From positions 1-45,340 of the forward strand of contig JANYKA010000102.1 of the NCBI GenBank assembly GCA_025358315.1: a stretch of DNA of 45,340 nt, written 5' to 3'. How positions within the stretch are numbered: the first letter of the stretch is position 1; every line of letters begins with the position of its first letter. The DNA comes from Gemmatimonadota bacterium (GTDB lineage Bacteria; Gemmatimonadota; Gemmatimonadetes; Gemmatimonadales; Gemmatimonadaceae). The notes beneath the pieces are model-generated. The model was not told where the DNA came from. It made no database searches and was given only the letters and a program-made list of their open reading frames with translations. This document shows, in pieces, positions 8,225 through 20,068 of the stretch. The position numbers and the translations under genes were made by a program.

Positions 8225-9535
8225 ATGCCTCCACGCACCCTTGCCTCGCTCGCGCACGCGCTGAGTGCCGCGACCGACCTCGATGCGGCGTTCGTTGCCC
8301 TTGCCGAGGGACTCGCGGAAACGGATCGCGACGCGCACATCGCCCTGCTTCGGCTTGACGCCAAGAGCGGCCTGTTGCGTGAGCGCCTGCTCGTGGCAGC
8401 GGGCCGCATCCAGCGCGAAGTACTCGACACCTCAATCGAGCAATTCCCGAAACGGGCGGGCCAAACTATCGCCGCCGGCGGGATCTTCGCCGACCTCGCT
8501 GATGAGTCGGCCGAGTTCGCGCGAATGCTTTCGCTGCCGAGTATTGCCGATGGCGTCTATCTCGGCCTGCTGGGACTCCGTGTGGACGGCCAGCTCGCGG
8601 CAATCGTTGCCGTTCTTGAGCCGAAGCTGGCGTTCGGTACTCGCGTGTCGGAACGCTTTGCCCCGATGGCGGCGCTCTTCGAACTCGCCTATCTCCGATT
8701 TGCCGAACGCGACGCACGTCTCGAAGCGGTCGTGACACTCGAAGACGTCACGCAACGGGTCCATGGCGCCTACGTGACGCGATTGGCCGCCTTAGAGGCA
8801 CAGCTCGGGGAGGCCCGGACGGCCGCGCTCGGCTCCGGCGACGCCGCAGCAGACGCGCTGGCGCGCGAACGGGAGGCCGCCAAGACATCCGAAGAAGTCC
8901 GGCGAAGTGCCAGGCGACTCGCTGCATTGGAGCACCAGCTCACCGCCGCGGTCGGCCAGCTAGAACAGGCTCACGTGGAGTTGCATCGTCGCAGTGAAGC
9001 GCTGCGGCAGCGCACCCGGACGATCTATCTCATTGACCGCGTGCTCACGCTCGCCGGTGGGCAGAACGATCCCAGGCGGCTGGCAGAAGGGCTCCTCTCG
9101 CTGGTCGGCGATGATATGCAGGCGCTTCGTTGCTCGCTCTTTCTTTGTGTCCCCGACGACGCGTATACCCTTTACCTCGCGGCCGGTCGCGGATTGGCGC
9201 CGCACATTGTGCTCGGCTCGCGAATTACCATCGGACAAGGAGTCGCCGGCCAGGTCGCCGCGACACGCGAACCGCTGCTCGCGGTCGATTCCGGCGACAT
9301 TACGGGACACAAATTACTTGGCGACGAGTATCTGACGACCGGATCATTTATCAGCTTCCCACTCGTTTTGCACGAACAGTTGCTCGGGGTGGTGAACCTT
9401 ACCAACCGCGCACAGCACGGGCTCTTTGTGGAAGAAGATGTTGAGCGCGTGCGGTTGCTTGGCCTCGTGATTGCGCTTGTGGCGCGCGAAGCGCAGCTGC
9501 CCGAGCGGTTGATGGGGGTGATTCGTGACCGCTAA
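8225..9535 (+). CDS. GAF-domain protein with central coiled coil (no evident output domain)
   Basis: C-terminal GAF-like segment (RCSLFLCVPDDAYTLYLAAGRGLAPHIVLGSRITIGQGVAGQVAATREPLLAVD…LLGVVNLTNR); heptad-rich middle. Confidence 0.75.
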   Translation: MPPRTLASLAHALSAATDLDAAFVALAEGLAETDRDAHIALLRLDAKSGLLRERLLVAAGRIQREVLDTSIEQFPKRAGQTIAAGGIFADLADESAEFARMLSLPSIADGVYLGLLGLRVDGQLAAIVAVLEPKLAFGTRVSERFAPMAALFELAYLRFAERDARLEAVVTLEDVTQRVHGAYVTRLAALEAQLGEARTAALGSGDAAADALAREREAAKTSEEVRRSARRLAALEHQLTAAVGQLEQAHVELHRRSEALRQRTRTIYLIDRVLTLAGGQNDPRRLAEGLLSLVGDDMQALRCSLFLCVPDDAYTLYLAAGRGLAPHIVLGSRITIGQGVAGQVAATREPLLAVDSGDITGHKLLGDEYLTTGSFISFPLVLHEQLLGVVNLTNRAQHGLFVEEDVERVRLLGLVIALVAREAQLPERLMGVIRDR

Positions 9536-10569: not shown

Positions 10570-11178
10570 CTAGTACCGCCGCAGCACTCCCACGACGATT
10601 CCTTGAACCCGCATTTGGTTCTCCTGAACATAGATGGGCGCCATCTGGTCGTTTGACGGTTGCAGGCGGATGCGTCCGTCGCGTTCACGATAGTAGCGTT
10701 TGACCGTCGCCGAATTGCCGTCCAGCATTGCGATGACCATGTCGCCGTTATTTGCGGATTGGCGATCGTGCACAACGACCATATCGCCATCGGCGATCTG
10801 GTCGTCGATCATCGAGCGGCCACGTACTTTCAGTACATAGTGATTGCCGGCGCGCCTGAGGAAATCTTCGGGCACGGCAACGGTTTCTTCAATCGTAGCT
10901 TCTTCGATCGGCATGCCGGCGGCGACCGCGCCAAGCAGGGGTAGCTCGACGGAACGGGGCGTTGCGTCCGACGGCAGAATCTCGATCGCACGGCTCTCAT
11001 TATAGCTGCGCTTGATGTAGCCCTTTCGTTCGAGATTGCTCAGGTGTTCGTGGACAGTTGCGAGCGAGCTATACTTAAAGTGTTCGGCAATCTCTTCGAA
11101 ACTCGGCGCATAGCCGTTCGACACTGCGTACCCGTTGAGATAGTCGAGAATCTGGCGCTGGCGCTTGGTGAGCGGCAT
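10570..11178 (-). CDS. lexA: LexA repressor
   Basis: MPLTKRQRQILDYLNGY N-terminal HTH; AVAAGMP cleavage region, VRGRSMIDDQIADGD Ser, ATVKRYY Lys. Start placed at internal Met at 11178. Confidence 0.95.
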   Translation of the reverse strand: MPLTKRQRQILDYLNGYAVSNGYAPSFEEIAEHFKYSSLATVHEHLSNLERKGYIKRSYNESRAIEILPSDATPRSVELPLLGAVAAGMPIEEATIEETVAVPEDFLRRAGNHYVLKVRGRSMIDDQIADGDMVVVHDRQSANNGDMVIAMLDGNSATVKRYYRERDGRIRLQPSNDQMAPIYVQENQMRVQGIVVGVLRRY

Positions 11179-11204
11179 GTCGGCGGCCTTAGCTGTGTGT
11201 GAGC

Positions 11205-11296
11205 GTTCGAACGGCTTTCGTGCAAGGATCGAATGGCGTGTCCATTCAGACTCCCGAACAACCCCCGAAGTAACGGTATCCGAACATTGCCCGAAG
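11205..11296. promoter_or_regulatory. Candidate LexA operator region: two GAAC-N7-GAAG direct repeats plus GTTCGAAC palindrome
   Basis: CCGAACAACCCCCGAAG at 11254-11270 and CCGAACATTGCCCGAAG at 11280-11296; GTTCGAAC at 11205-11212, between lexA and the trpC core. Confidence 0.4.
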
Positions 11297-12117
11297 CGCA
11301 AGCGACGACTTCGACGTGGATTCCGCCCGTTGGCCCCCTTGGGGAGCTGACGGCGCTTTCCGAGGTCGCCGTACGGCGTGGACACGATTCCCTGCGGGAG
11401 TTGGAAAAAGCCGCAGCAGCGTTACCGCTTCCGCCCTCGTTTTCGGCCGCATTGCGTGGCGTGGATGTTCGGGTAATTGCTGAACTAAAGCGTCGGAGTC
11501 CGAGCAAAGGCGACCTCAATCTTACGATGGATCTCGGTGCGCGCGCCGTGGACTACACAGCCGGCGGAGCGGTCGCCCTGTCGGTGCTGACGGAACCGAC
11601 TCGATTTGGTGGCTCGTTGCAAGATTTGGAGACAGTCAGTCGGGCCGTGACTGTGCCGCTCTTGCGAAAGGATTTCATCGTTGACGTGTTGCAGTTGCTT
11701 CAGGCGCGATCTTCTGGTGCGTCTGCCGTCCTACTCATTGCCCGCGCCCTGCATCCGGATCGATTTGCCGCGCTTGCGGCCGAGGCGCAGGCGTTGGCGC
11801 TTGACGTGCTGCTCGAGGTGCGGAGCGAAGAGGAGTTGGAGCGTGCGCTGCGTGTACCGCATGGTGTAATCGGGGTAAACAATAGAAATCTTGAAACATT
11901 AGCGATTGATGACGCCGTGAGCGAGCGCCTTCTGCCACTCATTCCGAACGATCGCCTCGCCGTGTACGAAAGCGGAATCGCTGATCGGACCGGAGTGGAG
12001 CGTGCGGCGGCATTCGGTGCCAACGCCGTGCTGGTGGGATCGGCCCTTTCCGCATCGTCGAACCCGATGGCGGCGGTCGCGGCGCTGACTGGCGTTACCA
12101 GAGCGCACCGTGGTTAG
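11233..12117 (+). CDS. trpC: Indole-3-glycerol-phosphate synthase (start uncertain)
   Basis: VIAELKRRSPSKGDL, LLRKDFIVD, GVNNRNLETL; the first ~20-30 codons from ATG 11233 do not look like a conserved TrpC N-terminus, an in-frame TTG lies near 11287. Confidence 0.95.
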   Translation: MACPFRLPNNPRSNGIRTLPEAQATTSTWIPPVGPLGELTALSEVAVRRGHDSLRELEKAAAALPLPPSFSAALRGVDVRVIAELKRRSPSKGDLNLTMDLGARAVDYTAGGAVALSVLTEPTRFGGSLQDLETVSRAVTVPLLRKDFIVDVLQLLQARSSGASAVLLIARALHPDRFAALAAEAQALALDVLLEVRSEEELERALRVPHGVIGVNNRNLETLAIDDAVSERLLPLIPNDRLAVYESGIADRTGVERAAAFGANAVLVGSALSASSNPMAAVAALTGVTRAHRG

Positions 12118-12754
12118 CGTCAAATTCTGCGGCCTCACCCGGCGCGAAGATGCGGCACAAGCGGCTGCACTCGGTGCCTCCCACGTTGGGACAATCTTTG
12201 CCGGGGGACCGCGCCATTTGACGCCGGAACAGGCGGCGATGGTATTGGAGGGTGCGACGACGGCTCAGGCGCGCGTCGGCGTGTTCGGCGTGGATGCGAT
12301 TGACCGAATTCTGACCACGGTGGAGACAGCGCGCTTGGACATCGTGCAGTTACATGGAGATCCGCGCGCGTCCGATATCCGGGCGATTCGCGCTAAATTC
12401 TCCGGGAAGATATGGGCCGTGGCCCGCGCGGAGGGGTCGTTGCTGCCCGAGTGGGCGGCTGAACTGTTCCGCGAGGCTGATGCGGTATTGCTCGATGCGC
12501 ATGTATCGGGAAAATTAGGCGGTACGGGTGTAGTGTTGGAATGGGGAGCGCTCGCACGATCGGTAAACGATTTGCGAGGGGATGCAACGTTGGTCCTCGC
12601 GGGCGGCCTTCACCCCGGCAATGTTGCCGAAGCGGTTCGATTACTCGATCCTGCAGTAGTAGATGTTTCGTCCGGAGTCGAATCGGCGCCGGGAATCAAG
12701 GATCACAGGAAGATGCGCGCCTTTCTTGAGGCGGTGCAGGGAGCAGCGCAGTGA
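12110..12754 (+). CDS. trpF: Phosphoribosylanthranilate isomerase
   Basis: [59 protein letters not shown]. Confidence 0.96.
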
Positions 12755-13944
12755 CGACAGAAACCCAGGAAGCAACAGGACGGTTCGGCGCATACGGCGG
12801 CCGGTACGTGCCCGAGACGCTGATTCCGGCACTCGATGGGCTCGAAATCGCGTATACAGAAGCGATGGCCGATGCCACGTTCGTTGCCCAGCTCGACAGC
12901 GAATTAAAGCATTATGTCGGCCGGCCCTCACCGCTCTCCGATGCGCCGCGGCTGTCCGAACGCGTTGGCGCCCCTGTCTGGCTGAAGCGTGAAGATTTGA
13001 ATCATACCGGCGCACATAAAATTAACAACGCGCTGGCCCAGGCGTTGCTCGCGAAACGCATGGGGAAGCGGCGCATTATTGCCGAGACGGGCGCCGGTCA
13101 GCACGGCGTTGCATCGGCGACCGCGTGCGCACGCTTCGGTCTGGAGTGCGTGGTGTATATGGGTGAAGAAGACATCCGTCGCCAGCAGCTCAATGTATTT
13201 CGCATGCGATTGATGGGTGCCACCGTGATCCCGGTTACATCGGGAACGCGGACGCTCAAGGATGCTACGAGCGAGGCGATTCGCGATTGGGTCTCCACCT
13301 GCGAGGACAGTTATTACATCATCGGTTCGGTCGTTGGCCCGGCGCCGTATCCACGAATGGTCCGCGACTTCCAATCCGTGATTGGACGCGAAGCGCGCGC
13401 CCAGATGTTGGAACGCGCTGGCCGTCTGCCGCGGAGTGTAGTCGCGTGCATTGGTGGCGGCTCAAACGCGATGGGCATTTTTCACGCTTTCGTTCCGGAC
13501 GCTGGTGTCGAGCTTGTGGGCGTCGAGGCGGCAGGCCATGGTCTGGACACGCCCGCCCATTCGGCCTCGTTGGCGAAAGGCACGCCGGGTGTGCTGCATG
13601 GCGCCTTCAGTTATCTGCTACAGGATGAGCAGGGTCAGATCCATCCTGCCCACTCGATTTCCGCTGGCTTGGACTACCCCGGTGTCGGGCCCGAGCACTC
13701 GTATCTCAAGGACAGCGGCAGAGCGACGTACGTGTCGGTGACCGATGAGGCCGCTCTCGAGGGTTTTGAATTGCTGGGAAAACTCGAAGGCGTGATTCCG
13801 GCGCTCGAAACCGCACACGCCGTGAGTTGGATTGTTGCCAACGCCGGACGGTGGGGGGCCGATGACCCCGTTTTGCTGTGCGTCAGTGGTCGGGGCGACA
13901 AAGACGTGGCGCAGGTAGCAGAAATGCGTATTATGGCTCTGTGA
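12751..13944 (+). CDS. trpB: Tryptophan synthase beta chain
   Basis: [47 protein letters not shown]. Confidence 0.97.
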
Positions 13945-15719
13945 GTCTTAACGCGCCGGCCGTGAAATCGGACGAAGAACTTCCTCTCGAGCCGCCCTTT
14001 GCTGCGGCGCTCGTGGAGGAGATGCTTCGGCAATTCGACAAGACGGTCCGCGCCCATCAGTTGTATATGCATAACAACCCCACGTATTTAAAAACGTTGG
14101 AGTTGTTACGGAACGCGTTCGTACCCATTTGGAAGGAAACCGATTCATTGGCCCTGCAGGTGAGCGATACGCAGTTGACCTGGTTCGGAGTGACGGTCAT
14201 CAACGAACCGGAGAAAGCGTCGGACTCGCTGCCGTGGACGCTGTACAAAGATGGTGTCCGTGAAATCACGTTGGCGCCGGGTTTCGAAGGCGACGAACTC
14301 GAGTCGTTCCTCGATATCATTCCGCGTGTCCGCAAAGCGCAGGCGTACGAAGACGATTTGCTGACGATTCTGTGGGAGCAGGAATTTGCCCATCTCACAT
14401 ATCGCTACGTCGATATCTCGAGTGAGCCGGGATTGCCGATCGACACCGCGGCGAACGCCGGTCGCTGGCCGGTCACGCCGGGAGAAACGGCAGACGATCC
14501 GCGCCGGATGGTCGAAGAGACGCGTGCATCCGTGGAGCGACCCGGCAAGCCCGGCGGCAGTAGCGCCGAGGAAGAACTCAAGGAATCGCCCAGCGGCATT
14601 GTGCGCATGGAAGATTTCGATTCGACGCTCTATTTTCTCGACGCTGCAGAGATTTCCTATCTGCGTCAAGAGACGGAGCGCGAGTACGCGACAGACTTAC
14701 GGCGAACCGTGCTGAATACGCTTCTCGACATATTCGAGTTGCAAAGCGACACGCTGGTGCGGAAAGAGGTCGCGCAGAACATTGACACCCTGATCCTGCA
14801 TTTGTTGGCAGGCCGCCAGTTCGCAAATGTCGCGTACCTGTTGCGCGAGATTTCCGGCGTGCTCGAGCGTGCCAGAGATCTGCCTCCCGACGTGCGCGCC
14901 CGGCTGCAACAACTGCCGGATCGGCTCAGCGAGCCCGAGTCGCTTTCGCAACTGTTGCAGGCGATGGACGAGGCGCAAGCGCTCCCGCCTCAGGACGAAC
15001 TGATTGACCTCTTTACGCAGTTGCGTCCGACGGCACTTGGAACGGTTTTTAGCTGGCTGAGTCTGACGCAGAACACCAAACTCAAGCCGTTGCTCGAATT
15101 GGCGGCCGAGCGCCTGGCCGCGTCGAACACCGGCGAGCTGGTGCGCTTAATTGCCGCGGCTCAAGGGCAAGTGGCGCTCGAGGCGGTGCGCCGTGCCGGT
15201 GGGTTGAAGACGGCCGCGGCGGTTCCCGCGCTAGGAAAGGCGCTCAATGAACCCGATCGCGAATTGCGCGTCGCCGTTGTTGCCGCGCTGATCGAAATCG
15301 GTACACCTGGTGCCATGCAGGCCCTTGAGAAAGCGCTCGACGACGCTGATCGCGATGTGCGGGTGGCCGCGGTCAAAGGACTCGCGCATAAAGTGCATAG
15401 ACCGTCGCTCGCGCGCATCACGCAAATGGTCAAGGCGAGAGAAAGTCGCGATGCTGATCGTACCGAGCGCGTGGCGATGTTTGAATTGTTCGGCCTGCTC
15501 TGCGGCGATCCGGGTGTTCCATACCTGGATGATCTGCTGAATGGCAAAGGCGGCATCTTCGCGCGCAAAGAAGATCCCGATGTTCGTGCCAGCGCCGCGC
15601 TCGCCCTCGGCAAGATTGGCACGCAGCGTGCCCAGCAGGCGCTGCAGAAAGCGCTGAACGAGAAGGACGTTGTGGTTCGCACCGCCGTGAACCGCGCACT
15701 CCGCGGCGGTGCACCGTGA
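13941..15719 (+). CDS. HEAT-repeat protein with N-terminal module resembling that of the adjacent HD-GYP protein
   Basis: C-terminal HEAT/PBS-lyase-like repeats ([56 protein letters not shown]); GTG start at 13941 overlaps trpB stop by 4 nt. Confidence 0.8.
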
Positions 15720-17206
15720 ACCGGCCGTCGAACAGCCGTCTCACGCCGCGCACCACGATGTCGACGCAGGCGATGCCCGAGCGCGGCGGGGAAGGATACG
15801 TGCGGACGATCGGCCGCAATTTTATGCTGGCGATGTACGGGGCCCTGCGGAACATCCGCATGTATCCCGTGGAGAATCCGGTGGTGCAGCACGCGCTCGA
15901 CGAGCTCACGGCGATCTGCGAAGAACTGCGGGAAGGCGAGGGCGATGTGGAATTCCGGGTGTCCGGTGAATTCATCTTTTTGAATTCCACGCGCCTGCGT
16001 CTCGATCTCGACAACTACAACTCGTTTAGCTATCTGCTCGCCCAATGCCGTGGCAGCGGCGTTGGCGTGCTGCATGTGCGGGCGAAACCAGCCGCGCGCG
16101 ACTGGACGGTGTTTCTGTCATTCTTGCTTGCCCCACAGGGTGACGGGCCTGCCGAGCGATTCGAGCAATTGCAACGCCGCCTCGAAGTGACGGGCGTGAC
16201 CGTCTTCGAAGTTGCTCCGCCGGTCGAATCGGAAGATGAACAGAAAGACCGGTCGCAGGCCAAGGAGATGGCAAAGCGCACCTACGCGCAGTCGGTCACG
16301 GCGACGCGCGACGTGATGAATTCTGTGCGCATGGGCCAAAGCCCAAACATCAAAAAGATCAAACGCGTGGTGCAGGGGATCGTCGATCAGATCCTGTCCG
16401 ACGAGACGTCATTGATCGGGCTGACAACGATTCGCGACTACGATGATTACACGTTTGCCCACTCGGTGAACGTGTGCATATTCGGGGTGGCACTGGGCCG
16501 TCGCTTGGGGCTCTCGCGTCTGCAATTGTACGATATCGGGTTGGCCGCACTCTTTCACGACATCGGCAAGTCGCGCGTGCCGCTCGAGGTGCTCAATAAA
16601 CCCGACCTGCTCAGTGATGAAGAATGGCGGTTGATTGCCGCGCATCCCTGGCTCGGGGTGCTCGCCCTCTTCCAGTTAAAAGAGCAGCAAGAGTTCCCGT
16701 ATCGCTCGATGGTCACGGCCTATGAACATCATATGAAGCGCGACGTCACTGGGTATCCGCGCTCCCTGCGTACTAAAGCCATCGGGTTCTATAGCAAGAT
16801 TATTGCGGTGGCCGACGGGTTCGATGCCGCCACCTCCCGTCGTTCGTATCAGACAGAGCCCATGAACCCGGCGGCAGTGCTCGCCGAAATGCGCGACAAT
16901 GCGCGGCGCGGAATGGATCCGGTCATCGTCAAGGCATTCGTCAATCTGCTGGGCATTTACCCAGTAGGGACGTTCGTCGTGCTCGACACGTTCGAGCTCG
17001 CGATTGTGCATTCGGCGAATCCCGATCCGCAAATGGTGTCGAGGCCGCTGGTCCTCCTGGTCAGCGACGATCTCGGCAACGTGCAGCACCCTGGCGAAAT
17101 GGTGGATCTCGCCGAGAGCGATCCGTCGGGGACCTTCCGCCGGACGATTATTAAAACTGCCGACGCCGACCGTTACGGGATTCGTGTAGGCGACTACTTT
17201 ATCTGA
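15716..17206 (+). CDS. HD-GYP domain phosphohydrolase with N-terminal regulatory module
   Basis: AALFHDIGKSRVP, AHPWLG, EHHMKRDVTGYP, IIAVADGFDAATSRRSY. Confidence 0.9.
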   Translation: MNRPSNSRLTPRTTMSTQAMPERGGEGYVRTIGRNFMLAMYGALRNIRMYPVENPVVQHALDELTAICEELREGEGDVEFRVSGEFIFLNSTRLRLDLDNYNSFSYLLAQCRGSGVGVLHVRAKPAARDWTVFLSFLLAPQGDGPAERFEQLQRRLEVTGVTVFEVAPPVESEDEQKDRSQAKEMAKRTYAQSVTATRDVMNSVRMGQSPNIKKIKRVVQGIVDQILSDETSLIGLTTIRDYDDYTFAHSVNVCIFGVALGRRLGLSRLQLYDIGLAALFHDIGKSRVPLEVLNKPDLLSDEEWRLIAAHPWLGVLALFQLKEQQEFPYRSMVTAYEHHMKRDVTGYPRSLRTKAIGFYSKIIAVADGFDAATSRRSYQTEPMNPAAVLAEMRDNARRGMDPVIVKAFVNLLGIYPVGTFVVLDTFELAIVHSANPDPQMVSRPLVLLVSDDLGNVQHPGEMVDLAESDPSGTFRRTIIKTADADRYGIRVGDYFI

Positions 17207-17207
17207 T

Positions 17208-17990
17208 GTGATCAGTCAACGATTTGCCATGTTGCGCGCGGCGAACCGCCGCGCGCTCGTCTGTTATGCCACTGCCGGCCATCCCGACCGCTCGCGGAGC
17301 CTTGCGCTGTTGCGGGGACTCGTTGACGCCGGCGCTGATATCATCGAAGTCGGAGTTCCATTTTCCGATCCTGTCGCTGATGGACCGGTCATTCAAAGCA
17401 GTTCGCAACAAGCGCTGGAACAGGGGATGACACTTGACGGTGCGCTGGAACTCGTGGCCGAAGCACGGCTCGGCGTCCCGGTGGTGCTCTTCTCCTATCT
17501 GAATCCGATTTTGGCGGCCGGTCCCGACGTGCTCGTGCGGGCAAAGGCGGCGGGTGTGCATGGCGTGCTTGTTACCGACCTGCCCGTCGGCGCAGATGGC
17601 GTACGGGAGGCCTGGTTCGGAAAGGGGCCGCTCGACTTTGTGCGGCTGGTAGCACCCACCACGCCCCGCGACCGGATGGCCGAGATCGCGCTCCACGGTC
17701 GCGGCTTTGTGTACCTGATCAGCCGGCTCGGCGTCACCGGTATGCGTACTGATATTGCGGCGACGCTGCCGGAGACCATCGCTGATTTGCGAAGCGTATG
17801 CAGGCTGCCAATCTGCGTCGGATTCGGGATATCGAATGCCGCGCAGGCGCGCACGATCGGTGCCTTAGCCGATGGCATCGTCGTCGGTAGCGCCATCGTA
17901 CAGGCAGCGGAACGCAGTATCGACGAAGCGGTCGCGCTGACGCAAAGCCTGCGCTCGGCGCTCGATTCATTGGATCCGATCGTCACGTGA
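17208..17990 (+). CDS. trpA: Tryptophan synthase alpha chain
   Basis: [67 protein letters not shown]. Confidence 0.96.
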
Positions 17991-20068
17991 ACCGCCTACT
18001 GTCCGTCTATGCGCGATCGATTACGCTGGCTGGCACGCTGTTGCTCGCCGAGACCGTATGGATGGATCGCGCGTGGATGAGTCATTTCGTACCACTCGGC
18101 GTGCTCTTCTTTGCGACCGTACTGTTCCGGCGCTATCAGTTGCCGATTACCAAGTACGGCGCGCTCAATTTGCTCGGGTTGGTGGCCACCGGCGGTGCCC
18201 TGATTGCCGGACCGACTCCGACCGCGCTCGCGCTTTTCTTTGGGGTGTTGACCGGCGACTGGCTGATGCTGCGCAAAGAAATTGGTGTGGCGTGGATCAA
18301 TGCCGGCCGCGAGACGCTGGCGTTGCTCGCCGCGTACGGAATTTTTGCGTGGAGCGCCGTGGCGCTGGGCGCCGGTGCACACGGAGTCGAAGGGCCTGAT
18401 TTTATCCCCGCGATGGCGCTATTCCTGCTCGCACATTTCATCCTGAGCCGTGGATTACTGTACTTCACGCTCGTCGTGCGAGGCAAGCTCCACCCGGAAG
18501 AAACGTCGCTCATACTCCGGTATGAGATCCTGACCGGCGGTGCGGGTGCGACCGCGGTCGGCATCGTTGTTGGTGCGCTTCAGATGCTTGGCTGGCTTGG
18601 GACTGTGATTGTGTTGTTCGTCATCGGGTTTGCCGGTTTACTGATCAAGCGCATTATCGGAGAATCGATCGCGGCCGAAGAGTTGAATACGATACTGGCG
18701 ATGGAACAGGTCGTGGCGAGCGACCGCGGACTTGCCGAAGCCATTCAGCGGATCGAAATGCTCGCCCACCGGATGATTGATTGGCGCGACATTCGCATTA
18801 CCCGCATCGACGGTGGTCGCCAAATGGTCGCGTATCAAGGTGGCATTGGCCTGCTGGCCACTCCGATGCCGGCGAAAGTCGATGGCGCCACATTGCGCGA
18901 CATGGCGTTGCGCTCAGGGGAACCCGTCCTCATTGCTGACGCGGCAAAAGATTCACGCATTGAGCATATGCGCCCCGAGGCGCGCTCGTCGATTACCATC
19001 CCGCTCCGGTTCGGCGATCGTAATGTCGGCGTCCTCGAAATTGAACATCACAAGCCGAATACGTACGGTCAAAAGGAAGCAATGCTCGTGCGCCGGTTCG
19101 CCAATCATTTGGCGACGACGTTGCATATCCACGATCTGCGCGCGCCGCTCCTTGGCACGGTGACGCGTCTGACCCGCGAGCTCGACACGCTGACGGAGTC
19201 CGCGCGCTTGCTGCGCGCGGGTGGCGAGTCGGTGGCGTACACCGTTGCCGACATCTCCCGCGGAATCGCCGAGGAGGCCGAGCAGGTGCACTCCAGTCTG
19301 GAGATGACGCAGGTATTGCTCGAAGCCACCGGCCGCGTCGTCGATGATGCCCGCGATGCCGCAACGACCAGTCGCAGTGCCACCGACATCGCGTCGGCGA
19401 ATCGCGAAAAAATCGGATCGGCGATCGAACGGCTCATCGGCGCGAAGCGCTTCGTGAGCGAAAGCGCCGACCAGGTCGCGACGTTGGTGGCCAGTACGCA
19501 GCGCATTACCGATTTTATTGAAATCATTTCGCAAATTGCCGATCAGACGAATCTGCTGGCACTCAACGCTGCGATCGAAGCGGCACGCGCCGGCGCAGAA
19601 GGACGCGGATTCGCCGTCGTCGCCGAAGAGGTCCGCGCGCTCGCCGAGGAGAGCCGCCGGGCCAGCGACAAAGCGGGGGACATTCTCCGACGGTTCGGGG
19701 CAGAAATGCGGATGGTCGCCGAACAAATGGCGAGCGGGCAAGCGCTGGTGGCGGACGTGGAACAATTGTCCGAGGCATCCCGGGGGGCGCTCGAACAAAT
19801 TGTGCAGGCCACCGCGCAGAGCTCGGCGCGGTCCCAGCGCATTGCCGGCACGTCGCAGGAACAACAACAGTCATTTTCGGTGCTGCAAGATCGGGTGGCG
19901 CGCGTCGCCGAAATCTCCGGGCGAAATCGTATCGGGGCCGAACAGGTCAGTTCATCGGCGATTGATCAGGCCGCCGCGCTCCGTGAACTCGAAGGCGCGA
20001 TTCACGGATTGCGCGAAGTCGTGACGAATCTGAACGACCTCGCCCGCCGCATCACGAATGTCGGCTGA
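17987..20068 (+). CDS. Multi-TM membrane protein with GAF-like and methyl-accepting chemotaxis signalling domains
   Basis: About seven hydrophobic segments, then a GAF-like domain, then canonical MCP hairpin [40 protein letters not shown]. Confidence 0.88.

Follow-up and report, generated by a model that had tools for sequence, protein, structure and literature searches.

Introduction

HD-GYP enzymes and HEAT-repeat proteins are both already known; among the two classes of cyclic di-guanosine monophosphate (c-di-GMP) phosphodiesterase, that of the HD-GYP enzymes is understood less well. To our knowledge, how HD-GYP enzymes are controlled is still mostly unknown. A described arrangement similar to the one reported here is that of RcbA and RcbB of Vibrio vulnificus, which share an N-terminal TPR domain and bind through it, RcbA relieving the inhibition of the RcbB cyclase (PMC12282931). 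In this study we describe a pair of adjacent genes encoding a HEAT-repeat protein and an HD-GYP protein on contig JANYKA010000102.1 (positions 1-45,340; the whole 45,340 nucleotide stretch is referred to as the window) of a Gemmatimonadota metagenome-assembled genome, GCA_025358315.1. A first-pass annotation, made from the sequence, had noted by eye that the N-terminal regions of the two proteins resembled each other and had proposed a two-protein signalling unit in which these modules either heterodimerise or sense the same input. Relatives which a genome-wide scan recovered are named Gemmatimonadota or Gemmatimonas.

Results

Both genes were found on the forward strand where the first-pass annotation had placed them, the HEAT-repeat protein gene (592 amino acids) at 13941-15719 and the HD-GYP protein gene (496 amino acids) at 15716-17206. 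As a plain BLASTP comparison of the two proteins gave no signal, orthologues of the two genes were gathered separately within the phylum and the resulting profiles compared. Profiles of 62 HEAT and approximately 70 HD-GYP N-termini aligned over 112 columns with a score of 60.1 (E 3e-9), while reversed profiles scored approximately 12 and 300 column shuffles gave a mean of 12.8 (sd 2.4, maximum 24). With pan-phylum profiles the alignment covered 139 columns over the whole module (Prob 99.1, E 4.8e-19), so that the profile comparison proposed as a check returned significant similarity at both depths. The register of the profile alignment was the same as that chosen by eye ([11 protein letters not shown] / [22 protein letters not shown]...FLDII / GSGVGVLHVRA...FLSFL). 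Profile alignment placed the module at residues 15-156 of the HEAT protein (13983-14408, forward strand) and at about residues 21-170 of the HD-GYP protein (15776-16225, forward strand).

Searches of whole genomes gave the same result. When the HD-GYP N-terminal profile was used alone, the match which followed the HD-GYP protein was the N-terminus of the adjoining HEAT protein (1.8e-14 in genome G214 and 1.8e-12 in G203). A hidden Markov model (HMM) of the HEAT module, searched against the window's own genome, matched the HEAT N-terminus (1.5e-48), the two modules of a second pair described below (6.9e-12 and 2.7e-7) and the N-terminus of the window's HD-GYP protein (6.9e-5). With a profile match far above the shuffles and HMM matches to the partner module, the similarity first seen by eye is real, and on these sequence comparisons we regard the homology of the two N-terminal modules as established, both forms being, on the same evidence, descendants of one ancestral domain.

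AlphaFold2 (AF2) models of the two N-termini were built from separate alignments. The mean predicted local distance difference test (pLDDT) score was 94 for the HD-GYP N-terminus and 87 for the HEAT N-terminus, where a disordered tail pulls down the mean and the module part itself scores about 94-98. In both models the order of elements was helix, helix, two-to-three-strand hairpin, helix, strand, helix, helix, strand, and secondary structure agreed at 91 of 112 positions (81%) in the register derived from sequence as against 37-64% in slid registers. The predicted folds, whose disagreement would have spoken against the annotation, were thus the same in element order and matched the sequence register. 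No family covering either form of the module was found in Pfam and NCBIfam scans, and Foldseek searches of both models against the PDB gave no match with E < 0.1 (TM-scores about 0.2). A PDB sequence search with both module profiles gave nothing beyond short alignments with a repetitive protein and with coat proteins, which we judged to be chance. The module may represent a fold yet unsolved, and it would merit its own domain-family entry.

The distribution of the two genes was determined in 200 Gemmatimonadota genomes, HEAT matches weaker than about 1e-9 being dropped from the counts as repeat-only. Orthologues of the HEAT protein were present in 133 genomes and the N-terminal part of the HD-GYP protein in 132; both genes were found in 131, the HD-GYP gene alone in one, the HEAT gene alone in two and neither in 66, so that the phylogenomic co-occurrence foreseen as a check left 3 of the 200 genomes with a single gene. 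A contig ends 32 nt from the start of the lone HD-GYP copy; the lone HEAT cases were one gene at a contig end (G117) and one remnant (G134). This remnant, which lies in the gap between trpB and trpA (locus L099, 6801-7811), has the first ~290 residues of the HEAT protein fused in-frame to the last ~70 of the HD-GYP protein. It looks like what a deletion across the pair would leave, and may be one, although a deletion and an assembly join were not distinguished. In another genome (G127:C24:60855-62965) the HEAT gene was fragmented by in-frame stops beside an intact HD-GYP gene, as a decaying pair or a sequencing error might appear. A 24,584 amino acid open frame in G002 was discarded as a masked run of N.

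Beyond these genomes, a genome-wide scan with the HD-GYP protein as query, in which the HEAT gene was not used, recovered 80 loci in seven phyla (Gemmatimonadota, Nitrospirota, Eisenbacteria, Latescibacterota, Zixibacteria, Thermodesulfobacteriota and Elusimicrobiota), and a module-bearing HEAT gene lay directly 5' in almost all of the loci uncut by a contig end. Over all loci, such a gene was directly 5' of 145 of the 156 distinct module-bearing HD-GYP proteins, a census which was seeded from HD-GYP proteins resembling members of the pair and so leaves the module uncounted in unrelated settings. The median distance from the HEAT stop to the HD-GYP module was 71 nt. At least nine of the other 11 proteins were truncated at a contig or locus end; one was the GGDEF fusion protein of G160 described below.

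The pair is also lost and gained as a whole. It was co-absent from two genomes of the same genus (G057 and G173) and from G189, and in all three trpB joins trpA; extra copies come as whole pairs (G169, G027, G115, G074 and G055). In a tree of 83 modules, which has few columns and some long branches and of which only the starred forks were used, the HEAT and HD-GYP modules of the common (type-1) pairs were split by a branch supported 96/91, and the HEAT and HD-GYP labels required 3 changes as against 29 in shuffles. Divergent (type-2) pairs formed a separate group holding both HEAT and HD-GYP modules. In the type-1 pair the two forms of the module have been passed on as neighbours in at least seven phyla. 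The HEAT and the HD-GYP module of one Gemmatimonas pair (L105) both clustered with Eisenbacteria, each in its own half of the tree, so that this pair was probably moved by horizontal transfer as a unit. We conclude that the HEAT and HD-GYP genes very probably encode one conserved signalling unit, as had been proposed. Strong support for this comes from the homology of the modules, from the occurrence, loss, duplication and horizontal transfer of the two genes together, and from the ties to GGDEF and flagellar genes given below.

The HD-GYP catalytic domain (16442-16945, forward strand; Pfam HD_5, 1e-18) was examined by alignment to PDB entries 5z7c and 4mcw and in an alignment of 77 sequences. 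It has the HD-superfamily metal-ligand signature H...HD...H...HH...D; H249, H281, D282, H310, H338 and H339 were invariant (77/77), as was GYP at 346-348, and the last metal-ligand aspartate was D in 74 sequences and E in 3. The lysine of HDxGK was K in 76/77 and the arginine before Y was kept in 74/77. Compared with the consensus described for the HD-GYP class, HHExxDGxxGYP (PMC3774798), the HH, the D that follows (76/77) and the GYP were kept, while E was replaced by M in 71/77 and G by L or V in 66/77 to give HHMKxD(L/V)TGYP. The best solved relatives (5z7c, 4mcw, 9rbz and 4r8z) are HD-GYP phosphodiesterases, one of them specific for cGAMP (cyclic GMP-AMP). Because the metal ligands are kept and the solved relatives are such phosphodiesterases, the domain probably hydrolyses a cyclic dinucleotide, most likely c-di-GMP. 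It is joined to the module by a conserved linker (16229-16441, forward strand; AKRTYxQSV...KRVVQ.IVDQ), conserved in the 77 sequences and helical in the AF2 model, and is followed by a conserved C-terminal extension (16985-17203, forward strand) which is kept in the remnant at L099.

In the HEAT protein the C-terminal repeats (15147-15700, forward strand) matched HEAT_2 (residues 403-482, 3.6e-19) and HEAT_PBS (548-573), with 69.3 bits against a cut-off of 27.7. The N-terminal 380 residues, module included, matched no known family in Pfam and NCBIfam scans, nor did these scans reveal a recognised catalytic output domain anywhere in the protein.

A second, divergent pair is present in the window's genome on contig C142 (locus L219, 167-4499), where a HEAT-like protein of 721 amino acids and an HD-GYP protein of 421 amino acids each carry the module and the pair overlaps a PAS-GGDEF gene in one overlapping operon. 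A GGDEF gene lay downstream of such a pair in 15 of 30 sampled relatives, and the operon on C142 could possibly be a complete set for c-di-GMP synthesis and breakdown. On a Nitrospiraceae chromosome (L221, 5910-13609) a HEAT/HD-GYP pair lies immediately 5' of the genes for FliM, FliP, FliR and FlhB. A connection with c-di-GMP and with motility is suggested by these two sister units. The module also occurs in tandem. A protein of G160 (L098, 2762-6850, reverse strand) joins GGDEF and AAA_16 domains to two tandem modules and HEAT repeats in one chain. In a protein of G184 (L272, 2842-5676, forward strand) the tandem modules likewise occur with HEAT repeats, and a run of N masks the front of the protein. 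Tandem-module HEAT proteins were found in only 2 of the 200 Gemmatimonadota genomes.

In the window the pair lies within a tryptophan operon on the forward strand, in the order trpC, trpF, trpB, HEAT, HD-GYP, trpA. The flanking trpB (12751-13944) and trpA (17208-17990), both on the forward strand, belong to the host operon and lie outside the system; where the pair is absent they are joined directly. The HEAT gene has a GTG start and a 4-nt overlap with the trpB stop, and the HD-GYP gene likewise has a GTG start which overlaps the HEAT stop by 4 nt (GTGA). The coupling overlap remarked on in the first-pass annotation is therefore present, but it holds only with this GTG start. The start is uncertain, since the first ~20 residues show no conservation and translation could instead begin at an ATG lying 42 nt further on (15758). 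Among the neighbours, a GAF-domain gene overlapping trpD (8225-9535) and lexA, which is divergent inside the trp cluster (10570-11385), are widely conserved across the phylum. A gene for a protein with GAF and methyl-accepting chemotaxis domains (17987-20068) overlaps trpA and is found near the pair in the genus and in some other genomes, while it is absent at many loci. Screening with PADLOC gave no support for a role in anti-phage defence, there being a HEAT-repeat cross-match for the HEAT protein only and none for the HD-GYP protein.

Discussion

The account which we prefer, and to which we give somewhat better than an even chance, is that of a cyclic-dinucleotide phosphodiesterase which docks by its module onto the module of the HEAT partner, the partner controlling or localising the enzyme. 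Acting through the conserved helical linker, the enzyme's own module would keep the HD-GYP domain under regulation; once it pairs with its homologous counterpart in the HEAT protein, the effect of the contact would pass along this linker to the HD-GYP domain. The HEAT superhelix would in turn target or couple the enzyme to another component, for example a diguanylate cyclase or the motility machinery. Inferred in this account are the contact between the modules, which partner controls the other, and what the enzyme acts on. Heterodimerisation of the modules, which the first-pass annotation offered as one of two possibilities, is plausible by analogy because one protein has two tandem modules and because RcbA and RcbB bind through a shared N-terminal domain. 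It is quite possible, although we advance it tentatively, that we are dealing with a new cyclic-dinucleotide control unit of at least seven phyla, in which two matched forms of the module, one borne by a HEAT scaffold and the other by an HD-GYP enzyme, heterodimerise and thereby switch or localise a phosphodiesterase, with related units adding a GGDEF cyclase to make a synthesis-and-breakdown complex.

Several observations weigh against this account. No GGDEF gene lies close to the main pair, and both the GGDEF and the flagellar links stem from the divergent sister pairs. The motif HHMKxD(L/V)TGYP differs from HHExxDG in two residues, with M instead of E and L/V instead of G, so that activity is not assured, and an HD-GYP protein with no detectable activity, Bd1817, has been described (PMC3774798). 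A coupling analysis of 145 paired modules (effective number of sequences 79) gave top inter-protein scores above those of within-cluster permutations, but these came from few columns and were confounded by phylogeny, and we have not used them as evidence.

The other possibility raised at the outset, that the modules are homologous sensors which bind the same small ligand independently, the proteins being co-regulated with no contact between them, seems to us unlikely. The module does stand N-terminal to the output domain in both proteins, the usual place of a sensor, and an operon alone would yield co-expression; yet the HEAT protein has no recognised catalytic output, matches to the module were found neither among PDB folds nor among known ligand-binding domains, and the near-perfect one-to-one adjacency, the single gene order across phyla and the tandem module suggest stoichiometric pairing. 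A little less probable again is a non-catalytic HD-GYP domain which binds c-di-GMP or a GGDEF protein, with the HEAT protein as effector. The non-canonical motif would suit such a domain, the GYP surface has been reported as open to GGDEF partners (PMC3774798) and the type-2 operon encodes a GGDEF protein, but the near-invariant ligands, lysine and arginine in 77 sequences are the constraint expected of a working hydrolase.

Convergence, or a generic helix-hairpin-helix resemblance with the adjacency a relic of one lineage, could be argued from the N-termini being merely ~11-12% identical; set against the shuffle and reversal controls, the whole-genome HMM matches to the partner module, the identical predicted topology in register and the spread over seven phyla, it is scarcely credible. 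Service to, or regulation of, tryptophan synthesis is suggested by the site between trpB and trpA, which is kept with short overlaps over most of the phylum, but this too we consider very improbable. Four genomes (G028, G158, G184 and G097) keep the pair, near lexA, although a TrpB match at E <= 1e-30 is lacking in each, the three genomes lacking the pair keep trpB and trpA directly joined, and loci of other phyla, for example in Nitrospira, have unrelated neighbours. A tryptophan-related function was rejected, as the pair and trpB each persist without the other.

Returning to the proposed phosphodiesterase and its HEAT partner, none of the papers found in the literature searched on HD-GYP proteins with HEAT repeats describes such a pair, and no described HD-GYP partner was found there for the Nitrospira nitrifiers or the Gemmatimonadota. 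Neither the module, nor the fact that both partners carry it, nor the conserved unit turned up in the libraries and papers which we searched, although others may have sighted them before. For the study of HD-GYP control the pair offers a partner gene that stays constant, a domain common to both proteins and a gene order to work from, and this applies to the Nitrospira nitrifiers and the Gemmatimonadota.

Compared with the HD-GYP phosphodiesterases of the RpfG, PA4108 and PmGH class (HD_5, PF13487), the enzyme of the pair has all of the metal-binding histidines together with the HD, GYP, arginine and FDA motifs, and differs in its HHMKxD(L/V)TGYP sequence, its undescribed N-terminal module and its fixed HEAT-repeat partner gene. 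The DUF3391-HD-GYP proteins (PF11871) are likewise soluble HD-GYP proteins with an N-terminal domain of unknown function, and the linker before the HD domain of the pair weakly resembles the end of DUF3391 (E 0.0004-0.0017, below cut-off). This match reached 19.3-21.4 bits against a curated cut-off of 27.8 and was confined to the linker; the module itself was unmatched, and a HEAT partner is no part of the DUF3391 family definition. With the HEAT/PBS-lyase repeat proteins (PF13646, PF03130) the HEAT protein shares its C-terminal repeats, while its N-terminal 380 residues lie outside known families. The resemblance to RcbAB is one of arrangement only, with no sequence relationship claimed. Neither protein of the pair gave a TPR or GGDEF match, RcbAB has no HEAT repeats, and where RcbAB has TPR domains and a GGDEF domain for synthesis the pair has the module and an HD-GYP domain for breakdown. 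In both cases, however, a two-gene operon encodes proteins with the same kind of front domain and a c-di-GMP enzyme on one of them, and RcbAB provides the precedent for binding through the shared domain and for control of the enzyme by its partner (PMC12282931).

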